64,000 nucleotides of DNA from Chloroflexota bacterium (GTDB lineage: Bacteria; Chloroflexota; Limnocylindria; Limnocylindrales; CSP1-4), in NCBI GenBank assembly GCA_016191395.1, contig JACPOS010000013.1, forward strand, positions 1 through 64,000, read 5' to 3'. Position 1 is the first letter of the stretch. Each line of letters opens with the position of its first letter. The position numbers were made by a program, and so were the translations under genes. A model generated the notes under the pieces. The model searched no databases, was not told where the DNA came from, and saw only the letters and a list, made by a program, of their open reading frames with translations. Below, piece after piece: positions 7,414-24,998 of the stretch.

Positions 7414-8898
7414 ATGGACGCGAAGCAGGTCTGGCGCGCAGCCCTCGGCGAGCTCCAGGTCACCCTCTCCCCCGCGAACTTCGAGACCTGGCTGCGCGAC
7501 ACCGCGCTGGTCGAGGTCGATGACACGCGCTTCCGGATCTCGGTGCCCAACGGCTTCGCCAAGGACTGGCTGGAGAGCCGCTACCGCTCGCTGATCTCCC
7601 AGACCCTCGGCCGCATCGTCGGCTACGGCGTCCAGGTGGACTTCTTCGTCGGGCAGGCGGAAGCACTGGTGGACGGCGACACGGCGTCGGCCAATGCGGA
7701 AGCCGGCACGGACGGCGACGCGCCCGAGGGCGTGCGCGGAACCCGTGCTGCCGCGCCGGTCGCGGTCGGGCCCGGGATGCTGCCGCGGAGTGGCGACGCG
7801 CCGGAACGGCGGCAGGCGCCGCCGGTGCCCCAGGTCCGCGTGGAGCCCGGCCGGGTCGGTGGTGAGGGCGGCACGAGCAACATCAACCCCCGCTACACGT
7901 TCTCGAACTTCATCGTGGGCTCTGCGAACCGCCTCGCCCACGCGGCGAGCCTGTCGGTCGCGGAGCGACCGGGTCACGCCTACAACCCCCTCTTCCTGTA
8001 CGGCGGCGTGGGCCTGGGCAAGACCCACCTCATGCACGCCATCGGCAACCAGGTGGCCGCGAAGTTCCCGCGCAAGCGGGTCGTCTACGCGACCTCGGAG
8101 AAGTTCACGAACGAGTTCATCACCTCCATCCAGCAGGGCAAGATCGACGAGTTCCGCGCCCGCTACCGCCGGATCGACCTCCTCCTCATCGACGACATCC
8201 AGTTCATCGCCGACAAGGAGCGGACCCAGGAGGAGTTCTTCCACACGTTCAATGCCATCCACGAGGACGGCAAGCAGATCGTGCTGAGCTCCGACCGGCC
8301 GCCCAAGGCGATCCTGACGCTCGAGGAGCGCCTCCGCTCCCGCTTCGAGTGGGGCCTCATCGCGGACCTGACCGCGCCGGACCTGGAGACACGCATCGCG
8401 ATCCTCCGTGCCAAGGCCGAGGAGGGCGCGGTGCCGATCTCGTCGGACGTGATCGAGTTCATCGCTCGCAAGGTCGTCAGCAACATCCGCGAGCTGGAGG
8501 GCGCGCTCAACCGGATCGTGGCGTACGCCTCGATGGGCGCGATGCCGATCTCCATCGAGCTCGCCCAGGCCGTCCTGTCGAACGTGCTCTACAACCCCAA
8601 GAAGCGCCAGATCACGCCGGAGCGAATCGTGAAGGCCGTGTCCGAGTACTACGGCGTGGGACTCGACGCGCTCAAGGGCCAGAAGCGCGACAAGGCCATC
8701 GTGGTGCCTCGCCAGATCGCGATGTTCCTGATGCGCGAGGAGACAGACGTCTCGCTGCTGCGCATCGGCGCCGAGCTCGGCAACCGCGACCACTCCACGG
8801 TGCTCCACGCGTGCGACAAGATCACGCGCGAGTCGGGCGGGAACGACGAGCTGCGCCGCGAGATCGCCGCGGTCCGCGAGCTGATCTACGCCGACTGA
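7414..8898 (+). CDS. dnaA: chromosomal replication initiator DnaA (494 aa)
   Basis: DnaA binds DnaA boxes and melts the origin. Domain I opens with VWRAALGELQVTLSPANFETWL; a poorly conserved linker (about residues 85-160) follows. The AAA+ domain begins with NPRYTFSNFIVGSANRLAHAA and has Walker A GGVGLGKT (197-204), Walker B LLLIDDIQFI and a sensor region. The C-terminal helix-turn-helix ends with the signature GNRDHSTVLHACDKI (about 455-470). An open frame reaches 430 bases further upstream, but the ATG at 7414 matches the usual domain I start, so the upstream part is regulatory DNA. Divergent rpmH and downstream dnaN/recF confirm the origin context. Confidence 0.98.
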   Translation: MDAKQVWRAALGELQVTLSPANFETWLRDTALVEVDDTRFRISVPNGFAKDWLESRYRSLISQTLGRIVGYGVQVDFFVGQAEALVDGDTASANAEAGTDGDAPEGVRGTRAAAPVAVGPGMLPRSGDAPERRQAPPVPQVRVEPGRVGGEGGTSNINPRYTFSNFIVGSANRLAHAASLSVAERPGHAYNPLFLYGGVGLGKTHLMHAIGNQVAAKFPRKRVVYATSEKFTNEFITSIQQGKIDEFRARYRRIDLLLIDDIQFIADKERTQEEFFHTFNAIHEDGKQIVLSSDRPPKAILTLEERLRSRFEWGLIADLTAPDLETRIAILRAKAEEGAVPISSDVIEFIARKVVSNIRELEGALNRIVAYASMGAMPISIELAQAVLSNVLYNPKKRQITPERIVKAVSEYYGVGLDALKGQKRDKAIVVPRQIAMFLMREETDVSLLRIGAELGNRDHSTVLHACDKITRESGGNDELRREIAAVRELIYAD

Positions 8899-9337: not shown

Positions 9338-10456
9338 GTGAAGCTCTCGGTCATGCAGGAGAACCTGGCTCGCGGCCTTGGCGTCGTGAGTCGAGCGGTC
9401 TCCAACAGGAGCACGCTGCCCGTGCTGGCCAACGTCCTTCTCAAGACGGAGGACGGCGGCCTCCGGCTCACCACGACGAACCTGGAGATCGGGCTCGTGT
9501 ACTGGGTGCCCGGCAAGGTCGAGACGGACGGGTCGACGACCGTCCCCGCCCGACTCCTGGCAGACCTCGTGGGCTCGCTGCCCGGGGGCCAGCGGATCGA
9601 CCTGGAGACCGGTGCCAACGAGACGCTCCACGTGAGCGCCGGCCCGTTCCAGTCCCACGTGAAGGGCATAGACGCGGACGAGTTCCCCTCGATCCAGCCC
9701 ACCGGCGAGCGCCCCACCACTCGGATCGCCCAGAACGTCCTCAAACGCGCCCTCGAGGAGACCGCGTTCGCCGCGGCCACGGACGAGGCCCGCCCCATCC
9801 TCACCGGCGTCCTGTGCCGGTTCGAGGGCGAGACCGTGACCCTCGCGGCCGCCGACAACTACCGGATCGCCGTCAAGACCATCCCCATCCTGGACCCGGT
9901 CGGCGACACGAGCGTCGTCGTGCCGGCGCGCGCGCTCAACGAGCTCATGCGCGTCCTCGGCGACACGGACGACCCGGTGGACGTGGTGCTCGCCCAGAGC
10001 CGCAACCAGATCCTGTTCCACCTCGAGGGGATCGATCTCGTCAGCCGGCTGATCGACGGCCAGTTCCCGAACTACCAGTCCGTCCTCCCGAAGGCGCATA
10101 CGACGCGCGCGGTCCTGGATCGCGAGGAGCTCCTCCGCGCCGTCCGGCCGGCCGCGCTGATCGCCCACGAGTCTGCCAACATCGTGAAGCTCCAGATCTC
10201 CGCGAACGGCGAATCCGGCATCACCGTCAGCGCCAACGCGGAGATCGGCGACCACGTGGGCCAGGTCCAGGCGACGGTCGAGGGCGACGGCACCTCCATC
10301 GCGTTCAACGCGAAGTACCTCGCCGACGTGCTCGAGAAGGTCGCCGCGGACCAGTTCGCGCTGGAGCTCCAGGGCCCCCTCGCCCCGGGCGTCTTCAAGC
10401 CGATCGGCGACGACTCGTATGTGCACGTGGTGATGCCGGTCCGCACCACCTCGTAG
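9338..10456 (+). CDS. dnaN: DNA polymerase III beta subunit, sliding clamp (372 aa)
   Basis: The beta clamp is a ring-shaped dimer that tethers DNA polymerase III and other partners to DNA. The opening MKLSVMQENLARGLGVVSRAV and the segment RSTLPVLANVLL are family hallmarks. Three tandem clamp domains of about 120 residues fill the protein, and it ends with the usual VMPVRTTS-type C-terminus (canonical VMPMR). The start is GTG at 9338 with GGAG upstream. It follows the putative oriC and precedes recF by only seven bases, so they are probably co-transcribed. Confidence 0.97.
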   Translation: MKLSVMQENLARGLGVVSRAVSNRSTLPVLANVLLKTEDGGLRLTTTNLEIGLVYWVPGKVETDGSTTVPARLLADLVGSLPGGQRIDLETGANETLHVSAGPFQSHVKGIDADEFPSIQPTGERPTTRIAQNVLKRALEETAFAAATDEARPILTGVLCRFEGETVTLAAADNYRIAVKTIPILDPVGDTSVVVPARALNELMRVLGDTDDPVDVVLAQSRNQILFHLEGIDLVSRLIDGQFPNYQSVLPKAHTTRAVLDREELLRAVRPAALIAHESANIVKLQISANGESGITVSANAEIGDHVGQVQATVEGDGTSIAFNAKYLADVLEKVAADQFALELQGPLAPGVFKPIGDDSYVHVVMPVRTTS

Positions 10457-10463
10457 ACGGCCC

Positions 10464-11624
10464 GTGCAGGCGGCCTCGGGCGTGACGGTCGCCACCCTGG
10501 ACCGGCTCCGGCTGGGCGATCTCCGGTCCTACGCGACGCTCGAGGTCGCGTTCGGGGCGGGCCCGCAACTGGTCTGGGGTCCGAACGCCGCCGGCAAGAC
10601 CAGCCTCCTCGAGGCGATGGTCGTCCTGGCGCGCGGCAGCTCGCATCGGACCACGACGGACGTCGAGATGATCCGCTGGGGCTCCGACGTGACGCGGATC
10701 GAGGGCCGCTCGGGCGCCGACGAGATCGAGGTCGCGCTCGTCAGACCCGGCTCGCCGGCGGCGGCGAGCGGTGCCAGGAAGCGGATCCGGGTCAATGGCG
10801 TCCCGCGCCGGGCGTCGGCCCTCGCCGAGCGGCTCCGGGTCGTCCTGTTCGCGCCGGAGGACATGCTGCTCGTCGCCGGCTCGCCGTCACTGCGCCGCGG
10901 GACGCTGGACCAGCTGGCGATCACCCTGATGCCCGGCTACGCGTCGGAGCTGTCCACCTACTCGCGCGCCCTTCAGCAACGCAACGGGCTCCTCCGCGCG
11001 ATCCGCGACGAGACGGCGTCCCGCGACGAGCTCCGCTACTGGGATCGGCCGTTCCTGGAGGCCGGCGGGGCGGTGGTGGCGGCCAGGCACGCGCTGCTGG
11101 CTCGCCTGGCCGGGCCCCTCGCGGCCGCGCACGCGGAGATCGCGCCAGAGGAAGCCGCGACCGGAGCGCTGGGCGTGGAGTACGTCACGAACGCGCCCAT
11201 CGGCCATGGCGAATCCGCCCGGGACGCGCTGGAGCGGCGACTCGCGGAGACCGCCGAGAAGGAGGTGTGGAACGGCACCACGCTGGTGGGACCGCACCGG
11301 GACGACCTCGCGTTCGTCATGGGCGGCCGGGACCTCGCGGCGTTCGCCTCGCGCGGCCAGCAGCGGACGGCGATCCTCGCGATGAAGCTTGCGGAGCTGG
11401 ACCTCGTGACGGCGCACGACAGCCGGCCGCCGCTCCTTCTCCTGGACGATGTCTTCTCGGAGCTGGACCCTGCCCGCCGGGCGCACCTCGTGCGCCGCAT
11501 CGCGGAGCTGCCGCAGGCGTTCGTTACCACGACCACGCTCGACGATCTGGATCCGGCGCTCCGCGAGATCGCGACGCCGTGGGAGGTCCGGACCGGGGCG
11601 GACGGCGCGCGGCTGGCGCCATGA
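10464..11624 (+). CDS. recF: DNA replication and repair protein RecF (386 aa)
   Basis: RecF is an SMC-like ATPase that helps load RecA at gapped DNA. After an N-terminal LRLGDLRSYATLEVAF strand, Walker A is GPNAAGKTS (about 39-47). The ABC-type signature region is ASRGQQRTAILAMKLAE and Walker B is LLLLDDVFSELDP, all in the expected order. The GTG at 10464 follows dnaN closely. Its TGA overlaps the ATG of the DUF721 gene, an arrangement seen in many origin regions. No gyrB or gyrA follows within the window. Confidence 0.96.
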   Translation: MQAASGVTVATLDRLRLGDLRSYATLEVAFGAGPQLVWGPNAAGKTSLLEAMVVLARGSSHRTTTDVEMIRWGSDVTRIEGRSGADEIEVALVRPGSPAAASGARKRIRVNGVPRRASALAERLRVVLFAPEDMLLVAGSPSLRRGTLDQLAITLMPGYASELSTYSRALQQRNGLLRAIRDETASRDELRYWDRPFLEAGGAVVAARHALLARLAGPLAAAHAEIAPEEAATGALGVEYVTNAPIGHGESARDALERRLAETAEKEVWNGTTLVGPHRDDLAFVMGGRDLAAFASRGQQRTAILAMKLAELDLVTAHDSRPPLLLLDDVFSELDPARRAHLVRRIAELPQAFVTTTTLDDLDPALREIATPWEVRTGADGARLAP

Positions 11625-11947
11625 CCGACGAGCCGCGCCGGCGCCGGCCGATGTCGCGGATCGGAGACCTCATGCCCCAGGCCGCGGCCCAGCTGGGGCT
11701 CGCGGACGAGCTGCGCCGGGCACGGTTTCTGTCGACCTTCGATGCGATCGTCGCCGAGCTTGCGCCCGCGGCCCACGGTGCCTGCCGGGCGCTCCGGGTG
11801 GAGGGCGAGACGCTCGTACTCGAGGCGGACGCCCCGATCGTGGGCCAGGAGCTGGTCCTGCACGGCGAGGAGCTCGCGGCCGCGTTCCGCAGGGCACCGG
11901 GCGGCGCGCCCGTGCGTCAGGTGCGCGTCACGATCAGGCGGCGGTAA
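11621..11947 (+). CDS. DUF721 (DciA-like) protein (108 aa)
   Basis: This small protein has the DUF721 fold: an N-terminal helix region, then SWxxIVAxxxAxHxxP-like segment FDAIVAELAPAAHGACRAL and a terminal KH-like beta-alpha core (LVLEADAPIVGQELVLHGEELAAAF). Members next to recF are often annotated DUF721. Some relatives (DciA) help load the replicative helicase DnaB, a reasonable but unproven role here. The ATG at 11621 overlaps the recF stop (ATGA). Confidence 0.82.
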   Translation: MTDEPRRRRPMSRIGDLMPQAAAQLGLADELRRARFLSTFDAIVAELAPAAHGACRALRVEGETLVLEADAPIVGQELVLHGEELAAAFRRAPGGAPVRQVRVTIRRR

Positions 11948-12118: not shown

Positions 12119-14350
12119 GTGGCCCACCGGATCCAGATGAAGCTCGGTGTCGTGCCCGACGCCGAGCGCGCGCCAGATTCGCCCGACACCGCTCTCCACA
12201 TCGAGCCGCGTGTCGGCGCGCAGACGCGCAGCAAGGGCCACCTCTACCTGCTCGTCACGTCCCGCGTCACCGGCCCGAAGGCGCGCGAGGCGACCAGCCT
12301 CGTCGCCGACGCGATCCGCACCGAGTACTACTACGACGAGTCCGCCGGGATCCGCGTCTGTCTCGTCAAGGCCATCCAGGTCGCCAACAAGCGGCTCGCC
12401 CACGCCCGCGAGAAGGGGGCGCTCGGCTCCGGGCCGGGACCCATCGGTGTCGCCCTCGCCGTCGTCCGCGACAACGAGCTGTACGTCTGCACCGTGGGGC
12501 CGGCCGAGGCCTACCTCAACCGCGGCGCCCGGCTCTCCACCCTGCCGGACCCCCATCGCGATCGCGGCCTGCCGTCGGACGAGGTGGAGCCCGACGTGTG
12601 GCGCGGCGAGGTCAACGTCGGCGACCAGCTGCTCCTCGTGGCGCCGAGCGTCGTCGCCGCGCTCGGCGCCGATGCGCTCAAGGACGCGCTCGTGACGCTC
12701 CACCCCCAGTCGGCTGCGGAGGCGCTCACCGCCCGATTCCGTGAAGCGGGCGGCACTGGCAGCAGCGGCGCCCTGGTGATCGAGGCGGCGGAGGTCGCCG
12801 CCACTCGTGGCGGCGTCGTCCCGGTGCCGGTGCGGCCCTCGGAGCCGCTCGCCGGCACCCCGGATCGCTCGCCCATCCCGCTCGCGGATTCCGTCGCCAG
12901 CGGGCTGGCCGCGGCGCAGTCCGGCGCGCGCCGCGCACGGGGCGTCGCCGGCGGTGCCCTGTATCGGATCTTCGCCCGCCTCCAGGACGCGCTGCCGAGC
13001 CGCGGCGTCCCGAACCGCCGCGTCACGCCACTCGGTGCCCGCCGTGAGGTCCAGCGCCGCGCGGCGGTCGCCGTGCTGTCGCTCGTCATCATCGTCGGTG
13101 CCCTGGGCATCGGGTACTCGATGTTCGGCGGGCTCAAGCCCAACGGCCCCGCCATCGCGACCCTGGACTCTGCGCAGGGCGCGATCGAGCTCGCCCGTGG
13201 CAACCTCGACCGGGTGATCGGGCCGGGCATCGACCTCGTCCAGAACGACCCGACCCGAGCGGAGAAGCTGCTGACCGAGGCGTTCACCGCCCTCAAGCGG
13301 GCCGAGTTGGCGAACGTGCCGGCGTCCACGATCAACCCGCTGCGCACCAGGATCGTGGCCGCGCTCGATCGCCTCTACGGGATGATCGACGTGAGCTCCA
13401 CCGCCACGTTCACCTTCCCTGCCGACCCGGTGATCGACCTGCGGGCGCTGATCAAGGGCCCGGATGGGGCGCCATTCGTGCTCGACGCAGCGACGAAGTC
13501 GGTCTACCGGATCGACGTCGCCGGCAAGAAGGCCACGGCAATCTTCCGCGATGGCAACAAGGCCGCCGGTGCCACCGAGGCAGTCCCGAAGCTGCTCGGG
13601 GTCGGCGGACGCGACCTGCTGATGGTCGATTCGGCGAACGTGGTCTGGCGCTGGCGGCCCGCCAACACCACCGGCAAGGGCACCATCACGCGGGTTCGCG
13701 TCACCGGGGCATCGGAATGGGGCGACGACATCCTCGCGATCGGCACGTTCATCCGGAACGCCGACGCCAACCTCTACAACCTGTACGTGGTGGACCCGTC
13801 CGCGCAGCAGATCAAGCGCTATTCGCCGGCGGCGGACGGCAGCGGCTTCCCCGCCACGCCCAACTTGTACCTCTCGGCGGCCCGTGACATCAGCGGGATC
13901 ACCGCCCTGTACATCGACGGAGACATCTGGGTGGTCGACACCGGCCAGGTCCTCCGCCTCGTGAACGGCAACAGCGCGGGCTGGGTCGCGGCGCTCCCTG
14001 CCGACTCGATCCTGCGCGCGGCGCCCGGGTATCGGTTCATCGCGTCCGGTGCCGAACGACGCACGGGCACGATCTATGCGTTCGACGCCGTCAACGAGCG
14101 GGTGGTCGGCCTGTCGAAGGTCAGCGGCGCGATCGTCTCCCAGTACCGGCTCGCGGACGGGAGCAATGGCTGGCACGACCTGCGTGGCTTCTACATCGAG
14201 CCGGGGCTCGACCAGGAGCCCGACGTGCTCGTCTGGATCAACGCCGCCGGCCTGCACCGCGTCGTGCTCCAGCCCATCGGCGGCGTTCCCGGCTCGTCGG
14301 CGGTGCCGAGCGCCTCGGGAGGGTCCGGCTCGCCCGCAGCCAGCCAGTGA
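12119..14350 (+). CDS. membrane-anchored protein: degenerate PP2C-like domain plus beta-propeller (743 aa)
   Basis: Residues 25-250 have the size and pattern of a PPM/PP2C phosphatase (KGHLYLLVTSRV...EATSLVADAI, ANKRLAHAREKG, IGVALAVVRDNELYVCTVG, AYLNRGARLSTL). However, the metal-binding acids are gone: the usual ADGxGG position reads TSRVTGP and GDSRAY reads GPAEAY. A single helix (about 315-335, AAVAVLSLVIIVGALGIGYS) follows. Residues 340-730 are extracytoplasmic, with repeats typical of a beta-propeller (FVLDAATKSVYRID, LLMVDSANVVWRW, LYVVDPSAQQIKRYS). A signalling or scaffold role is inferred. The GTG start has AGAGGA upstream. The stop overlaps the rhomboid start. Confidence 0.6.
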   Translation: MAHRIQMKLGVVPDAERAPDSPDTALHIEPRVGAQTRSKGHLYLLVTSRVTGPKAREATSLVADAIRTEYYYDESAGIRVCLVKAIQVANKRLAHAREKGALGSGPGPIGVALAVVRDNELYVCTVGPAEAYLNRGARLSTLPDPHRDRGLPSDEVEPDVWRGEVNVGDQLLLVAPSVVAALGADALKDALVTLHPQSAAEALTARFREAGGTGSSGALVIEAAEVAATRGGVVPVPVRPSEPLAGTPDRSPIPLADSVASGLAAAQSGARRARGVAGGALYRIFARLQDALPSRGVPNRRVTPLGARREVQRRAAVAVLSLVIIVGALGIGYSMFGGLKPNGPAIATLDSAQGAIELARGNLDRVIGPGIDLVQNDPTRAEKLLTEAFTALKRAELANVPASTINPLRTRIVAALDRLYGMIDVSSTATFTFPADPVIDLRALIKGPDGAPFVLDAATKSVYRIDVAGKKATAIFRDGNKAAGATEAVPKLLGVGGRDLLMVDSANVVWRWRPANTTGKGTITRVRVTGASEWGDDILAIGTFIRNADANLYNLYVVDPSAQQIKRYSPAADGSGFPATPNLYLSAARDISGITALYIDGDIWVVDTGQVLRLVNGNSAGWVAALPADSILRAAPGYRFIASGAERRTGTIYAFDAVNERVVGLSKVSGAIVSQYRLADGSNGWHDLRGFYIEPGLDQEPDVLVWINAAGLHRVVLQPIGGVPGSSAVPSASGGSGSPAASQ

Positions 14351-15072
14351 TCCCGCTCCGCGATCGGAATCCGACGCGGCGAACGCCGATCGTCACATGG
14401 GCCCTCATCGGCGCGTGCTTCGCGGCATTCGCGCTGGAGCTGTCGGTCACGGCATCGGGTGGCGATGCCGCCCTCGAATCGTTCTTCCGGCGCTGGGGCG
14501 CAGTGCCGGCCGACATCACGGCGGCGCTCCGCGCCGGTGACTACCTGGGCCAGGCGACGATCGGCATGGTCAGCAGCATGTTCCTTCACGGCAGCTGGCT
14601 GCACCTGCTCGGCAACATGCTGTTCCTGTGGATCTTCGGCAACAACGTCGAGGACCGCCTTGGCTCCGTCGCGTTTGCCGCCTTCTACCTCGTCGGCGGC
14701 CTTGCGGCAGCACTGACCCAGGTCGTGATCGATCCGACCTCCCGCGTGCCCCTCGTCGGGGCGTCGGGCGCGATCGCCGCGGCCCTGGGGGCGTACATCG
14801 TCCTGTTCCCCGGAGCGCGAATCCTGTCGCTCGTGTTTCTCGGCTTCTTCTACCAGCTGCTCGAGGTGCCGGCTCTGGTCGTCCTCGGCTACTGGTTCGT
14901 GCTCCAGCTCGCCAGCGGGTTCGGCGCCCTCGGGGCGGAGACGGCCCAGGGCGGCGTGGCGTTCTTCGCCCATATCGGTGGCTTCGTCCTGGGCGTCGTG
15001 GTGGGGGTCATCCTGCGCGTGGGCGGGGCAGGCACGGCGCGGCGAGGCCCGGCCCTCGGTCCGATGGGATAA
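14347..15072 (+). CDS. rhomboid-family intramembrane serine protease (241 aa)
   Basis: Rhomboids cut transmembrane helices of substrate proteins within the membrane. The catalytic serine is in GASG (Ser140), the catalytic histidine in AHIGGF (His209), and the upstream HGSWLHLLGN (81-90) supplies the oxyanion-side residues. About six to seven membrane helices are predicted. It starts at GTG 14347, overlapping the stop of the PP2C-like gene (GTGA), so the two are translationally coupled and the membrane-anchored neighbour could be a substrate. That last point is inference. Confidence 0.9.
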   Translation: MIPLRDRNPTRRTPIVTWALIGACFAAFALELSVTASGGDAALESFFRRWGAVPADITAALRAGDYLGQATIGMVSSMFLHGSWLHLLGNMLFLWIFGNNVEDRLGSVAFAAFYLVGGLAAALTQVVIDPTSRVPLVGASGAIAAALGAYIVLFPGARILSLVFLGFFYQLLEVPALVVLGYWFVLQLASGFGALGAETAQGGVAFFAHIGGFVLGVVVGVILRVGGAGTARRGPALGPMG

Positions 15073-15079: not shown

Positions 15080-15688
15080 ATGGGCCGCCTTGTGGAGATG
15101 GTCATCGAGAGCGTTCGCGTGCACATGCTCTCGAACCGGCACGTGGTGATCCTCAAGGACACCGCCGGTGATCGCTACCTGCCGATCTGGATCGGTGCGT
15201 GGGAGGCGAGCGCCATCGCGATGCGGCTTCAGGGCCTCACGGCGGAGCGCCCGCTCACCCACGACCTCTTCGCGTCTGCGCTGGAGCGCCTCGGGGTGCG
15301 CATCGTCCGCGTCGTCATCTCCGAGCTGGCGGACGAGACGTACCACGCACGGCTGCACCTGGAGCGCGACGGCCTGGAGGTGGAGGTCGACTCGCGTCCC
15401 TCCGATGCCCTCGCGCTCGCGGTGCGCACGGAGGCGGAGATCTTCGCCGACGAGGAGGTCCTCGCCCAGGCCGCGCTCGCCACGGATCCCGACGAGGACG
15501 TTGCGGGCGAATCCGGCGCCGACGAGCCCGCCTCCGACGCCGGTGATCGACCCCGCCGCGCCCGTCCGCCGATCGAATCCATCGGGGACACGCCCGCCGA
15601 CCCGCGGCTGGACATGTTCCGGGACTTCGTCAACTCGCTGGAGCATGACCAGGGCGCCGGCCCCGAATCCGGAGGTCGCCGCAGCTGA
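15080..15688 (+). CDS. bifunctional nuclease family protein, DUF151 (202 aa)
   Basis: The N-terminal 140 residues form the DUF151/BFN domain. Landmarks are VVILKDTAGDRYLPIWIG, the helix EASAIAMRLQG, RPLTHDLFASALERLG and the closing SRPSDALALAVRTEAEIFADEEVL. Plant and mycobacterial members have nuclease or stress-response roles, but the biochemical activity of most bacterial members is unsettled. The C-terminal 60 residues are acidic and disordered. The open frame extends upstream inside the rhomboid gene; the ATG at 15080 is chosen because the family begins here and a promoter abuts it. Confidence 0.85.
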   Translation: MGRLVEMVIESVRVHMLSNRHVVILKDTAGDRYLPIWIGAWEASAIAMRLQGLTAERPLTHDLFASALERLGVRIVRVVISELADETYHARLHLERDGLEVEVDSRPSDALALAVRTEAEIFADEEVLAQAALATDPDEDVAGESGADEPASDAGDRPRRARPPIESIGDTPADPRLDMFRDFVNSLEHDQGAGPESGGRRS

Positions 15689-19640: not shown

Positions 19641-22600
19641 TTGAGTGGTCCCGCAATCGGTGAGCCCGACCCGGACAGGGCGGAGCGATCGCGGGCCGGG
19701 TTCAGGGACGCCGCGGGCAGCATCCTCGTCCTGCTGGCGCTTGGGCTCGCCTTCCGGCTCATCATCGCATACCTCCTGCCCGGCTCCGGCTTCAAGGTTG
19801 ACCTCGCCTCCTTCCAGTTCTGGGCGAACAACCTTGCCGACAGCGGCCTGGGCGGGTTCTACGACCGCCCGTTCTTCCACGACTACACGCCAGGCTACCT
19901 GTACGTGCTCTGGCTCGTCGGCGGCGTGGCGAACGTGCTGGGCGGTGGCGTCGGCGACCTGATCAAGATCCCGCCGATCCTGGGCGACCTCGCGCTCGCC
20001 TACCTCGTCTGGTCCATGACGCGGGAGCTCGGCGGGAGCGTGCGGGCGGCGCGGATCGGCGCGCTGCTCGTCATCATCAACCCGGTCACCTGGTTCGACA
20101 GCGTCGTCTGGGGGCAGGTCGATTCGGTGGGCGTGGTCGTCCTGCTGCTTGCGCTGCGCGAGCTGTGGCGCGACCGGCCGGAGCGTGCCGCCATCTTGGC
20201 GACGCTCGCCGCGCTGATCAAGCCGCAGCTCGGGATCCTGATCCCGATCGTGGCGATCGTCGTGATCCGGCGCGCCTTCTGGCCGCGCGGCGGCTTCGGC
20301 CGCGACGAGGACCCGGAGCCGCGCACCTGGACGCTGGGCTTGGAGGAGCGGATCCGCGGCCCGATCCGTGTCGTGACCACCGGCCTCGCCGGCCTGCTGA
20401 CGGCGATCTTCGTGTCGCTCCCATTCGGGCTCAGCTTCCCGGGGCTCATCGCGCAGATCTTCAAGACCGCGGCTGGTTACCCGTACCTGTCCGTGAACGC
20501 GTTCAACCCGTGGGCCCTCGTTATCCAGACGACCGCCGGCGGGCGGGAGCAGAGCCTCGCGCTCAACCGGTCATGGGTGTGCGATTCGACGATCGCCGCG
20601 TCGCCGGCGGGCGACTTCCGGATCGGCGACTGGCCGATCTGGAGCTGGCCCGCGAGCACGCAGACGTGCGACCCGGGCATGCTCATCGGCGCCTTTCCGG
20701 CCGCCCTCGTGGGGGCTGCGCTGTTCGTGATCGCCGCGGCCGTCGTCGTCTGGCTGGTCGCCCGCCGGCCGGATCGTATCACCACCCTCGTGGGCCTCGC
20801 GATCCTGTCCCTCGCCTTCTTCGTCCTCCCGACGCGCGTCCACGAGCGCTATCTCTTCCCGCTCGCGGCGGTCGGCGCGATCCTCGCCACGGTCTCGATC
20901 CGCTGGCGGATCGCGTACGTGCTCTCCGCTGCCGCGACGTTCGCGAACATGTACGTGGTCCTGACGACCTACTACCGCGACAACCCGGGCATCTCCGACT
21001 GGCTCGGGATGGGAGCCACGCTCGCCTCGCCGTGGGGCGTGGCCATCGCGTCGGTGACGCAGGCGCTCATCCTCGGCTGGGCGTTCTTCCAGCTGCGCGA
21101 GGAGGCGGTGGAGGGGATCGCGGACGGCGTCGCGACCGCGGGCCACGACCCGCACGAGCACAGCCGGCTCGCCGGCTGGCTGGGTCGCCGTCCCCCCGAC
21201 GATGGGCCGTCGCCCGATCTCGACCCGCACGAGCCCCAGCCGGCGTCATCCGGGTCGCCGGCTCCGTGGGCCGGCCCGCTCTCGGGCGTGCGCCCCGCCG
21301 CGGTGCCGGCCGGACCTGGCCCAGCGGCGGCTGCGGTGGCCACCCCCGTTGCCCCTCCCGCGGCCGCAGGCGCCGTCGTCGTGCCTGTGTGGGACGTGGA
21401 CCGCGACGCGGGCTCGCTGGGTCCCTGGGGGTGGTTCCGGGCGCGCCTGCGCGACTCCCCGGTCCGGGCCGACCGGAGCCGGTTGCTCGAGGGCGAGCGG
21501 GGCGGACGCCTCGACCGGCTGGACGCGTGGATGCTCGCGGTCCTCGCGATCAGCCTGCTGACCGTGCGCATGTGGCGGCTGGACGAGCCGTACCAGATGT
21601 ACTTCGACGAGGTCTACCACCCCCGCACGGCGACGGAGTTCCTCCAGGACTGGCGCTACGGCCTGTCGCACGACATCTACGAATGGACGCATCCGCATCT
21701 CGCCAAGTACGCGATGGCCCTGGGCCTCGTGGCACTCGGCGAGGACCGGGTCAGCGCCCGGAGCCAGCTGAACGTGGCGGTCGTCGACGCGGTCGTGGAG
21801 CCTCGGCGCGACGACGGCCTCGATTCAAGCCGGATCGAGGGCGATCGCCTGTGGGTCGCGACGGGCAGCGAAGTGCGGGCCTACGACCTGGCCACGCGCG
21901 AGCTCGCCGGAAGGGTCACGGTGCCGGACGCGGTCGCGCTCGCGTACGACACCAAGGGGCACACGCTGTACATCGGGACGCGCTCGGGCGAGATCCGCGC
22001 CGTCGATGTCGGCGCACTCGACGCCACCCGGCGCGGGCCACCCGTCGACGTCGACTCGCGGGCGTTCATGAGCGTGGACGGGCCGATCGACCGGCTGTAC
22101 GCGACCCGCAACGGCGAGCGCCTCGCGGCGGTGCTCCAGGCGGGGTTCGGCACGACCGATTCCGAGCACAGCCAGGTCGTCGTCATCGATGCGACCGCCG
22201 CGCTGGAGCTCAGCCGCCCGAGCTTGCGCGGCGTCGGCCAGATCAGCGAGGGCGTCAGCGACGACCGGCTGGCCGTCGCGACGGCCGATGGCGTCTCGTT
22301 CATCGAGCTGGTCTCCGGGGCCGTCACCAAGACCTTGGACGTCGGCGGGCCGGTGAGCGGGATCGTAGGCATCTGGGACATCCAGGACGATCCGCTGTAT
22401 GCCTCCGTCTCTACCCCGACCGGTCCGAAGTTCGCGGTCATCATCGCCAAGCGGGACGCTGAGCCTCGGGTCGACCGGACGTACATCCTCCCTGGCGCGA
22501 GGGCCGGGCGGGCGTATTACGACCTCGCCTCGCGGATGGTCCATATTGAGGGCTCTGTGCCCGTCGGAGCCGGCGGCGTCGATTCGGGCGGCGCGGACAC

Positions 22601-24998
22601 CGTGTACGTCATCGAGCCGCATGGCAACGCGGTGTATGCCGACGCGGTCCTGCCGTATGTGCCCACGGTCATGGTGATGGACGAGAACCAGGAGTACCCG
22701 TCCACGGACCGGGAGCAGCTGCTCGCCTTCGATGCCGGCGGCCAGGTCGCCGCGGTCGAGGTCGGGCGGCACGCGTACGCCTGGCGCGTTCCAGGCGTGA
22801 TCGCCGGTGTCCTGATGGCGCTGTTCATGTACGTGCTCGCGCGCCTGCTGTTCCGGCGCCGCTCGATCGCAGTCATGGTCGGCGTGATCGCCCTCGTGGA
22901 CGGGATGCTGTTCGCCCAGAGCCGCATCGGCATGAACGACTCGTACGTGGGGCTCGGGATCGTGGCGGCCTACACGATCTTCGCGGCGCTGTGGCTCCAC
23001 CCCGGCAACAGCCGGCGGCATTGGGTCGCGTTCGCCCTTGGCGTCCCGCTGATCGGCTTCTTCCTGGGCTTCGCGCTCGCGTCGAAGTGGGTCGCCGCGT
23101 ATGCGATCGGCGGCCTCGGCATGTTGAGCCTCGCCCGAAGCGCACTCGGCAGGCTGCTGCTCATCGTGGGCCTGGTGGTCCTGACGACCGCGCTGGGCTA
23201 TGTCGCGATCTCCGTGCCCGCGGGCCAGAGCGGCGGCAACTACGTGTTCCTGGTGATCATGTTCGCGCTGGTCATCGCCGCCGTCCTCGCGAACACGCTC
23301 CATCCCGTGGCGTGGACCGTGGAGGAGCTGCGCTTTGCCGTCGGGGCGCCGATCGCGGCAGGGGTCCTGGCGATGCTGTACGGCCTCAGCCGTGGCGACG
23401 CGACCCTGCCGGTCTCGATCGGCCCGATCACCGCGACCCCGATCCAGCTGGCGATGTTCGCGTTCCTTGGTGCCGCCGTGGTCTACGTGGGCTTCTACGT
23501 GCTCGGCCGGATCGGTTTCGGCCCGCTCGCGCTCCCGCCGGAGCCGGATGACCCGGCCGCGATCCTTGAGCCGCCAAGGGAGGCTCCGCAGGGCTGGCTC
23601 CGCCTCGGCGCGGGCTTCGGCCTGCCGGCGATCTGGCTGGCGGTGGGCCTGCTCGTGATCCCCATCGGGCTGTACGTGGTGTCGTACATCCCGTGGGCGA
23701 TGGTGGAGGGCCACCAGCTGTGGGCCGGGGCGGTGCCCGGGACGGGCTGGCCGCCGGGGAATACCGGGCAGACGCTGCTCGACCTCACGAGCACCATGTA
23801 CGCCTACCACAACAACCTGTCATCGGCGCACCCGGCCTCCTCGCCGTGGTGGGCATGGCCGCTCGACCTCAAGCCGGTCTGGTTCTACGAGGAAGGCTTT
23901 GCCGGTGGCACGTCCGCCTCGATCTACGACGCCGGCAACCTCGTTGCGTGGTGGCTGGCAATCCCGGCGCTCGCCTTCGTCGCCTGGCAGGCATTCAAGC
24001 GACGCAGCGCCGCGCTCGCACTGATCGGGATCGGGTTCGCCGTGCAGTGGATCTCGTGGGCGCGCATCGACCGCGCCGCGTTCGAGTACCACTACTACAC
24101 GTCGCTGCCGTTCGTGTTCCTCGCCCTCGCCTACTTCCTCGCGGAGCTGTGGCACGGAACATCTCGCCGCATCTGGCTCCTCGCGCGGCTGTCGGCGGCC
24201 GCGGCGATCCTGGGGCCGTTCGGGCTCTGGGTCATGCACCGGCCGCTGTGCGCGATCGCGCGCGTCACGGACATGGTCCCGAACTCGCAGGCGTGCCCGA
24301 CGCTGATACCGGACGTGACCATCTCGCCGCGCGCCATCGCGATCGCCGTTGTCATCGGCGTGGGCGTGCTCCTGCTCCTGCGCGAGCTGCTCGCGCTGTC
24401 CGAGGAGGACGACCCGGACCGGCTTGCGGTCGAGCAGGCGGCAGGCGGCTGGCGCGCCGCCATGGGGCGCTTGGGCCTGGGTAGCCGGTGGGCCACGGCG
24501 GCGGTCATCGCCACCCTCACCTCGATCGCGTTCGTCGTGGTGTCCACGGCGATCCCAGATTCGGACGGCTTGAAGATCGCGAACATCCCGGTTGAGCCGA
24601 TCGCCCTGTTCGTGACGCTCGCCCTGTCCCCGGTGGCGGCGTACGTCGCGACGGCGCGCGACGCGCGGCGGTTCGTGCTGGGGGCGCTCGGCGCGATGGT
24701 CTTCTGGTTCATCCTCTGGTACCCGAACATCTCCGGCCTGCCGCTGCCCGCCGCCATCCACAACGCATACCAGGGCTTCCTGCCGACGTACCTCTACCCG
24801 TTCCAGTTCTGGGTGCTCCAGGGGGACCGCGCGGCCGCCCCATCGCTCTTCGCGCCGGTGCCGGCGGTGATGCTGCTCGCTATCGCGTTCACGTCGATCG
24901 TGGTCGCGTACAGCGCGTGGTCGTGGCGGATCGTGCTCGCGGAGCGCCGGCGGGACCGGCTCGCGCCGCCGGAGGACCCCGGGCCGGGAGAGGGCTAG
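19641..24998 (+). CDS. giant fused GT-C glycosyltransferase with an inserted beta-propeller (1785 aa)
   Basis: Two GT-C membrane enzymes are joined. Residues 1-490 form a first module with about ten helices and KVDLASFQFWA and FYDRPFFHDYTPGYLY loops. A Pro/Ala-rich linker runs to about 620. The second module is GT39/PMT-like: the loop YFDEVYHPRTATEFL (near 655), then HPHLAKYAMALGLVALG. About 330 soluble residues follow (710-1040, beta-propeller style: LWVATGSEVRAYDL, LYIGTRSGEIRAVDV). The PMT fold then resumes at YAWRVPGVIAGVLMALF with the following DGMLFAQSRIGMND. More helices reach the C-terminus. The start is TTG 19641. The likely donor is the lipid-linked sugar made by the neighbouring GT2. 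The stop shares a CTAG with the convergent PimA-like gene. Confidence 0.8.
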   Translation: MSGPAIGEPDPDRAERSRAGFRDAAGSILVLLALGLAFRLIIAYLLPGSGFKVDLASFQFWANNLADSGLGGFYDRPFFHDYTPGYLYVLWLVGGVANVLGGGVGDLIKIPPILGDLALAYLVWSMTRELGGSVRAARIGALLVIINPVTWFDSVVWGQVDSVGVVVLLLALRELWRDRPERAAILATLAALIKPQLGILIPIVAIVVIRRAFWPRGGFGRDEDPEPRTWTLGLEERIRGPIRVVTTGLAGLLTAIFVSLPFGLSFPGLIAQIFKTAAGYPYLSVNAFNPWALVIQTTAGGREQSLALNRSWVCDSTIAASPAGDFRIGDWPIWSWPASTQTCDPGMLIGAFPAALVGAALFVIAAAVVVWLVARRPDRITTLVGLAILSLAFFVLPTRVHERYLFPLAAVGAILATVSIRWRIAYVLSAAATFANMYVVLTTYYRDNPGISDWLGMGATLASPWGVAIASVTQALILGWAFFQLREEAVEGIADGVATAGHDPHEHSRLAGWLGRRPPDDGPSPDLDPHEPQPASSGSPAPWAGPLSGVRPAAVPAGPGPAAAAVATPVAPPAAAGAVVVPVWDVDRDAGSLGPWGWFRARLRDSPVRADRSRLLEGERGGRLDRLDAWMLAVLAISLLTVRMWRLDEPYQMYFDEVYHPRTATEFLQDWRYGLSHDIYEWTHPHLAKYAMALGLVALGEDRVSARSQLNVAVVDAVVEPRRDDGLDSSRIEGDRLWVATGSEVRAYDLATRELAGRVTVPDAVALAYDTKGHTLYIGTRSGEIRAVDVGALDATRRGPPVDVDSRAFMSVDGPIDRLYATRNGERLAAVLQAGFGTTDSEHSQVVVIDATAALELSRPSLRGVGQISEGVSDDRLAVATADGVSFIELVSGAVTKTLDVGGPVSGIVGIWDIQDDPLYASVSTPTGPKFAVIIAKRDAEPRVDRTYILPGARAGRAYYDLASRMVHIEGSVPVGAGGVDSGGADTVYVIEPHGNAVYADAVLPYVPTVMVMDENQEYPSTDREQLLAFDAGGQVAAVEVGRHAYAWRVPGVIAGVLMALFMYVLARLLFRRRSIAVMVGVIALVDGMLFAQSRIGMNDSYVGLGIVAAYTIFAALWLHPGNSRRHWVAFALGVPLIGFFLGFALASKWVAAYAIGGLGMLSLARSALGRLLLIVGLVVLTTALGYVAISVPAGQSGGNYVFLVIMFALVIAAVLANTLHPVAWTVEELRFAVGAPIAAGVLAMLYGLSRGDATLPVSIGPITATPIQLAMFAFLGAAVVYVGFYVLGRIGFGPLALPPEPDDPAAILEPPREAPQGWLRLGAGFGLPAIWLAVGLLVIPIGLYVVSYIPWAMVEGHQLWAGAVPGTGWPPGNTGQTLLDLTSTMYAYHNNLSSAHPASSPWWAWPLDLKPVWFYEEGFAGGTSASIYDAGNLVAWWLAIPALAFVAWQAFKRRSAALALIGIGFAVQWISWARIDRAAFEYHYYTSLPFVFLALAYFLAELWHGTSRRIWLLARLSAAAAILGPFGLWVMHRPLCAIARVTDMVPNSQACPTLIPDVTISPRAIAIAVVIGVGVLLLLRELLALSEEDDPDRLAVEQAAGGWRAAMGRLGLGSRWATAAVIATLTSIAFVVVSTAIPDSDGLKIANIPVEPIALFVTLALSPVAAYVATARDARRFVLGALGAMVFWFILWYPNISGLPLPAAIHNAYQGFLPTYLYPFQFWVLQGDRAAAPSLFAPVPAVMLLAIAFTSIVVAYSAWSWRIVLAERRRDRLAPPEDPGPGEG

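Follow-up and report, generated by a model that had tools for sequence, protein, structure and literature searches.

The PP locus

The window analyzed here is a stretch of 64,000 nucleotides of Chloroflexota DNA in which dnaA, dnaN, recF, dciA, PP, a rhomboid protease gene and BFN all lie on the + strand (Table 1). PP stands for a protein with a PP2C-like domain, a transmembrane helix and a probable propeller, and BFN for a bifunctional nuclease domain protein. The PP stop and the rhomboid start overlap by four bases (GTGA), so that an overlap noticed in an earlier, sequence-only reading of this DNA is borne out by the open reading frame coordinates. The protein encoded next to PP is a member of the rhomboid family, sharing PF01694 and the Ser and His motifs with GlpG and other bacterial rhomboids; read by eye, it has GASG and AHIGG at the places expected for the catalytic Ser and His, and these we take to be the catalytic motifs. 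A promoter and terminator scan at the locus found nothing, which carries no weight either way. Elsewhere in the window, the C-terminal half of a 1785 aa open reading frame (19641-24998, + strand) matches PMT and PMT_4TMC (O-mannosyltransferase), and a propeller-like stretch, recognized by eye, lies ahead of the PMT part; this could be an unusual fusion.

Table 1. Genes of the PP locus and features of the PP protein, in window coordinates
Feature	Coordinates	Strand	Basis
dnaA, start approximate	7414..8898	+	PF00308, PF08299, PF11638
dnaN	9338..10456	+	PF00712, PF02767, PF02768
recF	10464..11624	+	PF02463 and place beside dnaN
dciA	11621..11947	+	PF05258, 35.6 bits (cut-off 24)
PP (PP2C-like/TM/propeller protein), 743 aa, GTG start	12119..14350	+	Open reading frame and class homologs
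Degenerate PP2C-like domain, residues about 35-228	12221..12802	+	AlphaFold2 model and Foldseek; family profile against PDB
TSRVTGP in place of canonical PP2C ADGxGG	12257..12277	+	Alignment with canonical PP2C; column counts
GPAEAY in place of canonical GDSRAY	12497..12514	+	Column counts; Pro for Asp common across the phylum family
Single transmembrane helix, residues about 315-336, Arg-rich stretch before it	13061..13126	+	Hydropathy, charge asymmetry
Outer helical stalk, residues about 344-421	13148..13381	+	Helices with a block-mean pLDDT of about 70-84; model poor elsewhere
Probable NHL/PknD-like propeller region, residues about 422-725	13382..14293	+	Profile matches over parts
Rhomboid intramembrane protease, 241 aa, GTG start	14347..15072	+	PF01694, 116.6 bits
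BFN	15080..15688	+	PF02577, 141 bits

A PP2C fold that has lost its metal ligands

The inner half of PP is a PP2C fold from which the metal ligands have been lost. Structure prediction of the N-terminal domain, which the sequence-only reading had proposed as a check, gave this fold: residues 1-240, modeled with AlphaFold2 from three sequences and at moderate confidence (pLDDT 60, pTM 0.62), have 484 Foldseek matches at E ≤ 10, the best 50 of which are all PP2C/PPM chains, headed by tPphA (2j86, E 9e-9). A few of these rows, RsbX 3w40 and 4jnd for example, are PP2C proteins whose titles do not say so. Against the PDB a profile of the PP family (26 rows) finds tPphA (E 8e-7, model positions 38-228), and the Stp1 PP2C model NF033484 reaches E 6e-4 over PP residues 52-142, far short of its cut-off; the window PP alone has no match in Pfam, kinases included. 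PP resembles the bacterial PP2C phosphatases, tPphA, PstP and Stp1 among them, in fold (by Foldseek) and in profile (by tPphA), but it differs from them in lacking the metal acids and in carrying a stalk and a propeller-like region besides.

In the window protein ADG is replaced by TS, GDS by GPA, SDG by PS and DN by GS, and T, P and G stand where ADG, SDG and DN would provide the metal Asp. None of 26 PP representatives of the class has all three metal Asp residues together, versus six of seven canonical PP2C proteins drawn from that class (seven of an original 12, less L253, L262 and L263, for which the wrong open reading frame was picked, and L256 and L257, which gave none). Columns were counted over 104 aligned rows from f1, f3, f4 and f5, with the f2 rows left out and L051 split into two rows (f1-f5, g1 and the like are family and genus codes of the genome set compared). 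At the ADG Asp column the residues are T, A, S, E, Q or H, and two of the 68 f1 rows still have D; the SDG Asp is kept in 0/104; and the GDS Asp survives in seven f1 rows, while all 36 rows of f3, f4 and f5 lack it. The claim that the phosphatase-like domain lacks metal-binding acids holds up in alignment and column counts alike.

The domain might still be an enzyme with a re-arranged metal site. Of the 104 rows, 100 retain an Asp at the position of the NED Asp, D73, D169 and E222 are invariant in the 26 representatives, and the seven f1 rows with Asp at the GDS place could point to residual catalysis. The ADG, SDG and DN acids are nevertheless nearly all lost in the class, and they are jointly lost in 36 of 38 proteins from elsewhere in the phylum, so that to judge from the aligned sequences such an enzyme seems very improbable.

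The domain is nonetheless under constraint. In six within-genus Nei-Gojobori comparisons with the window PP, dN/dS is 0.15-0.35 in the PP2C-like domain (residues 1-235), and the linker ahead of the helix, at 0.10-0.29, is slow like the domain; the propeller region gives 0.36-0.45, and the helix and stalk, at 0.45-0.74, form the fastest-evolving part of the protein. Conservation across 69 f1 rows, taken as the average fraction held by the most frequent residue, is 0.70 in the domain, 0.53 in the helix, 0.51 in the stalk and 0.55 in the propeller region. Such slow change in a PP2C domain that has lost its metal ligands is unlike what would be expected of a decaying enzyme.

Membrane topology and the outer region

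Hydropathy identifies one strong hydrophobic helix in PP, as the sequence-only reading had held in describing a tether of a single helix. The N side of this helix is the more positive one in 118 of 119 PP family members, and the Arg residues before it place the PP2C side inside; by hydropathy and charge, PP is predicted to be a single-pass protein with its N-terminus in and its C-terminus out.

The outer half beyond the stalk probably contains a propeller. The PP family profile matches designed Pizza propellers at E 8e-6 and weaker, and the PknD propeller (1rwi) at E 0.005 over part of the region; at E ≤ 0.1 the outer region matches SGL in five and NHL in four of 26 PP members. Because the structure model of the propeller part is poor (pLDDT 44.5), the propeller is read from these profiles, and its fold and blade count are provisional. 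Of the external beta-propeller proposed earlier, the outer side agrees with the topology, and the propeller itself is probable only. PknD has a cytoplasmic, active Ser/Thr kinase, one transmembrane helix and an outer NHL propeller, and the Pizza proteins derive from its propeller. PP appears to share with Mycobacterium tuberculosis PknD the order of inside domain, single helix and outer propeller, but where PknD has an active Ser/Thr kinase PP has a degenerate PP2C fold and no Pfam kinase match.

Distribution of PP in the class and the phylum

Of the 151 class genomes, 147 have the PP gene, among them all 53 of high quality. The gene order there is dnaA-dnaN-recF-dciA-PP-(rhomboid)-BFN, in which the rhomboid alone is variable: dciA lies upstream of PP in 111/117 testable loci and BFN downstream in 115/115, on the opposite strand in two of them (L037 and L038). 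Among the six loci with no dciA in reach, four belong to f2 and carry dciA farther upstream (their N-terminal PP domain being unmatched), one (L078) has just 603 bases available upstream, in which no dciA is seen, and in the last (L111) dciA was not found upstream of PP. In f2 (small genomes, L077-L088) the N-terminal domain is much diverged and many loci are matched only after it, with the helix and propeller part kept. In some f1 genomes an additional PP gene, or one related to its propeller part, lies elsewhere (G035:C92, G099:C131, G114:C144, G130:C34, G146:C33 and G149:C132).

The widest search made, with the family profile across the phylum Chloroflexota, gave matches in 259 of 400 genomes, of which 55 are counted as the window's own class; many of the matches span only one half of the PP model. 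Of the forty loci fetched from this search, 39 belong to other classes, and L246 is an additional copy within G007. Not one of the 39 has a rhomboid, dciA or BFN gene beside the PP relative at E ≤ 1e-4, some of these loci being cut by contig ends, and one (L239) has a weak recF-like match nearby. The proteins compared are 38 of the 40, L215 (N-terminal part missing) and the in-class L246 being left out; GDS has become GP in 32 of them, the ADG Asp has become E in 26, and 36 are without the full metal set. Since the inactive form is so widespread in the phylum, it is probably old in Chloroflexota. The two proteins that keep all three acids, L228 (G195) and L245 (G457), come from the large-genome family f21; they are related to the N-terminal half, their ADGMGG and DN motifs are intact, and they might represent an active sister group.

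The place of PP behind the replication genes may reflect shared expression alone, with no relation to replication. The neighborhoods of the other-class relatives favor this, since dciA, BFN and rhomboid are missing nearby at all 39 loci (with the same qualification about contig ends). Against it, PP directly follows dciA in five families of the class, the fifth represented by one locus. On balance we regard co-expression alone as rather probable, and it is compatible with a receptor function for PP.

Linkage of the rhomboid gene to PP

Linkage was scored in 119 loci from 118 of the 147 PP-positive genomes (G035 contributing two), 29 genomes being left out; L047 and L061 end at PP, which leaves 117 testable loci. 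The list of positives was compiled by hand, L016 being scored positive on its first 31 codons of rhomboid, and two f3 loci that also show a rhomboid beside PP (L180 and L181) stand outside the count. The rhomboid adjoins PP in 48 of the 117 loci, and is distributed unevenly: 21/21 in f3, 1/1 in f5, 26/69 in f1, 0/14 in f4 and 0/12 in f2. The coupling of PP to a rhomboid gene that was seen in the window is thus a real linkage, and probably an ancestral one; conservation of the pair in other genomes, the proposed check on it, does not follow, as the two genes are unlinked in 69 of the 117 loci, the outcome that the sequence-only reading had named as one that would refute it. A motif rule located the rhomboid start in 37 loci, and 24 of these show the four-base overlap.

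In a FastTree phylogeny of 106 PP proteins (104 labeled), which omits 12 f2 rows and L054 (the second copy in G035) and carries a long-branch warning, rhomboid presence changes 10 times, and eight of these changes are forced by starred branches. With f3 and f5 as outgroup, an assumed root, we infer that most of the changes are losses. Three genomes that are at least 90% complete and have PP (G053, G011 and G080) give no PF01694 match at E ≤ 0.001. The idea that the rhomboid is kept elsewhere in genomes where the adjacent one is missing was considered and dropped: seven f4 copies and those of G102, G112 and G119 (f1) are read as paralogs because they group with the second copies of f3, f5 and G014. 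All of these belong to one group of 16 distant copies (SH-aLRT 100) in a quick rhomboid tree, where the PP-adjacent copies do not form a single group, the distant L177 lying among them on a long branch. The remaining f1 genomes without an adjacent rhomboid have weak matches (E 1e-9 or worse) or none. Distant paralogous rhomboids could act on PP in trans.

Is PP a rhomboid substrate?

The sequence-only reading took the pair for a simple signaling device in which cleavage of the PP tether by the rhomboid would free one half of the protein. Several observations are in keeping with this: the four-base overlap, in the window and in most of the placed starts; linkage that lasts in f3, at the one f5 locus and in 26 of the 69 f1 loci; and, in f1, a mean of 2.46 glycines in the outer half of the helix with a rhomboid (n=26) versus 1.56 without (n=45, with L047, L061 and L054 placed in the latter group). 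The rhomboid is, however, missing from 69 of 117 loci, with 10 changes on the tree; the helix and stalk are the least constrained part of PP; and once proteins are paired on the tree glycine shows no link to the rhomboid (eight pairs, median p 1, low power). The glycine excess was accordingly set aside as a sign of cleavage, with the low power of that pairing in mind. In six hand-chosen pairs the protein without rhomboid has more outer glycines in three, the same number in two and fewer in one, and the helices of sister proteins with and without rhomboid are alike, with no consistent change.

Topology also speaks against cleavage. Rhomboids prefer N-out substrates, and published searches for their substrates were confined to N-out helices (PMC2941825, PMC7232013); the former paper discusses a type II exception, Star. 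PP, N-positive in 118/119 members, is oriented the reverse of the usual substrates (type I/III), and it has neither a lasting linkage nor a helix that changes with the protease, the pairing test being of low power. The cleavage-driven device is left unsupported by linkage, topology and the fast-evolving helix and stalk, and we give it little credence; on the same three lines of evidence we reject the rhomboid as an obligate partner. Cleavage is unlikely as the core mechanism of PP, and possible in those lineages that keep the rhomboid. A neat stop/start overlap with a protease gene need not signify a protease-substrate pair.

We see an even chance that the rhomboid is instead a housekeeping or quality-control protease, an operon-mate by history that acts on unassembled PP or never acts on it. 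Its repeated absence while the gene order is otherwise intact is what would be expected of such a protease, and bacterial rhomboids are reported to police orphan membrane proteins by quality control (PMC7232013); the f3 linkage (21/21), on the other hand, is beyond what mere accident might allow. Such a role would be compatible with PP being a receptor.

PP as a putative pseudophosphatase receptor

The explanation that we tentatively favor, at slightly less than even likelihood, is that PP is an old pseudophosphatase receptor of PknD-like layout which signals by binding and not by catalysis, and for which the rhomboid is dispensable. The outer stalk and propeller would bind an envelope or extracellular signal, and the cytoplasmic PP2C fold would relay it by binding a partner instead of by dephosphorylation. 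PP would come from a pseudophosphatase family spread throughout Chloroflexota that became fixed after dciA in the replication-initiation operon of its own class, with the rhomboid as an old yet dispensable neighbor. A bolder version, that these GP-type PP2C pseudophosphatase receptors are phylum-wide and that in one class they are a core part of the dnaA-dciA operon and couple an envelope signal to replication initiation, appears rather unlikely. A near-universal, constrained, dead PP2C in the replication operon of an entire class would be a defined place to ask how uncultured Chloroflexota link the state of the envelope to kinase signaling or to replication.

There are eukaryotic parallels. 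TAB1 and PHLPP2 are described as PP2C pseudophosphatases with an altered metal site and no phosphatase activity (PMC12002173); PP is like them in joining a PP2C fold to an altered site, and they differ from it in being eukaryotic and of other architecture. Each of the two keeps one metal ion. In the open literature, no paper devoted to a dead PP2C fold in bacteria was found by title, and none joining PP2C, beta-propeller, NHL and Chloroflexi.

The partner bound by PP would most likely be either a Ser/Thr kinase, which in the window genome is of PASTA type, or a phosphoprotein; one of the operon's own products is a further possibility. PF00069 kinases, PASTA and other types together, occur in 150 of the 151 class genomes, and the single one of the window genome has PASTA domains; because kinases and PP are both near-universal, their co-occurrence is weak evidence. 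Stp1-like PP2C proteins with strong scores are found in 66 of the 151 genomes (eight more are weak self-matches to PP), so PP is retained with or without a Stp1-type phosphatase. None was found in the 13 genomes of the window's genus, and the window genome has no PF13672 and no NF033484 match. The notion that it is devoid of any PP2C-type phosphatase was dropped when one SpoIIE-type phosphatase was found. Some 7-10 kb downstream of PP, several genomes of f3 and also G007 (f5) have a canonical Stp1-type PP2C gene, in some cases with an adjoining kinase gene; examples are G046:C215:21051-22897, G052:C17:98340 and G007:C64:12810.
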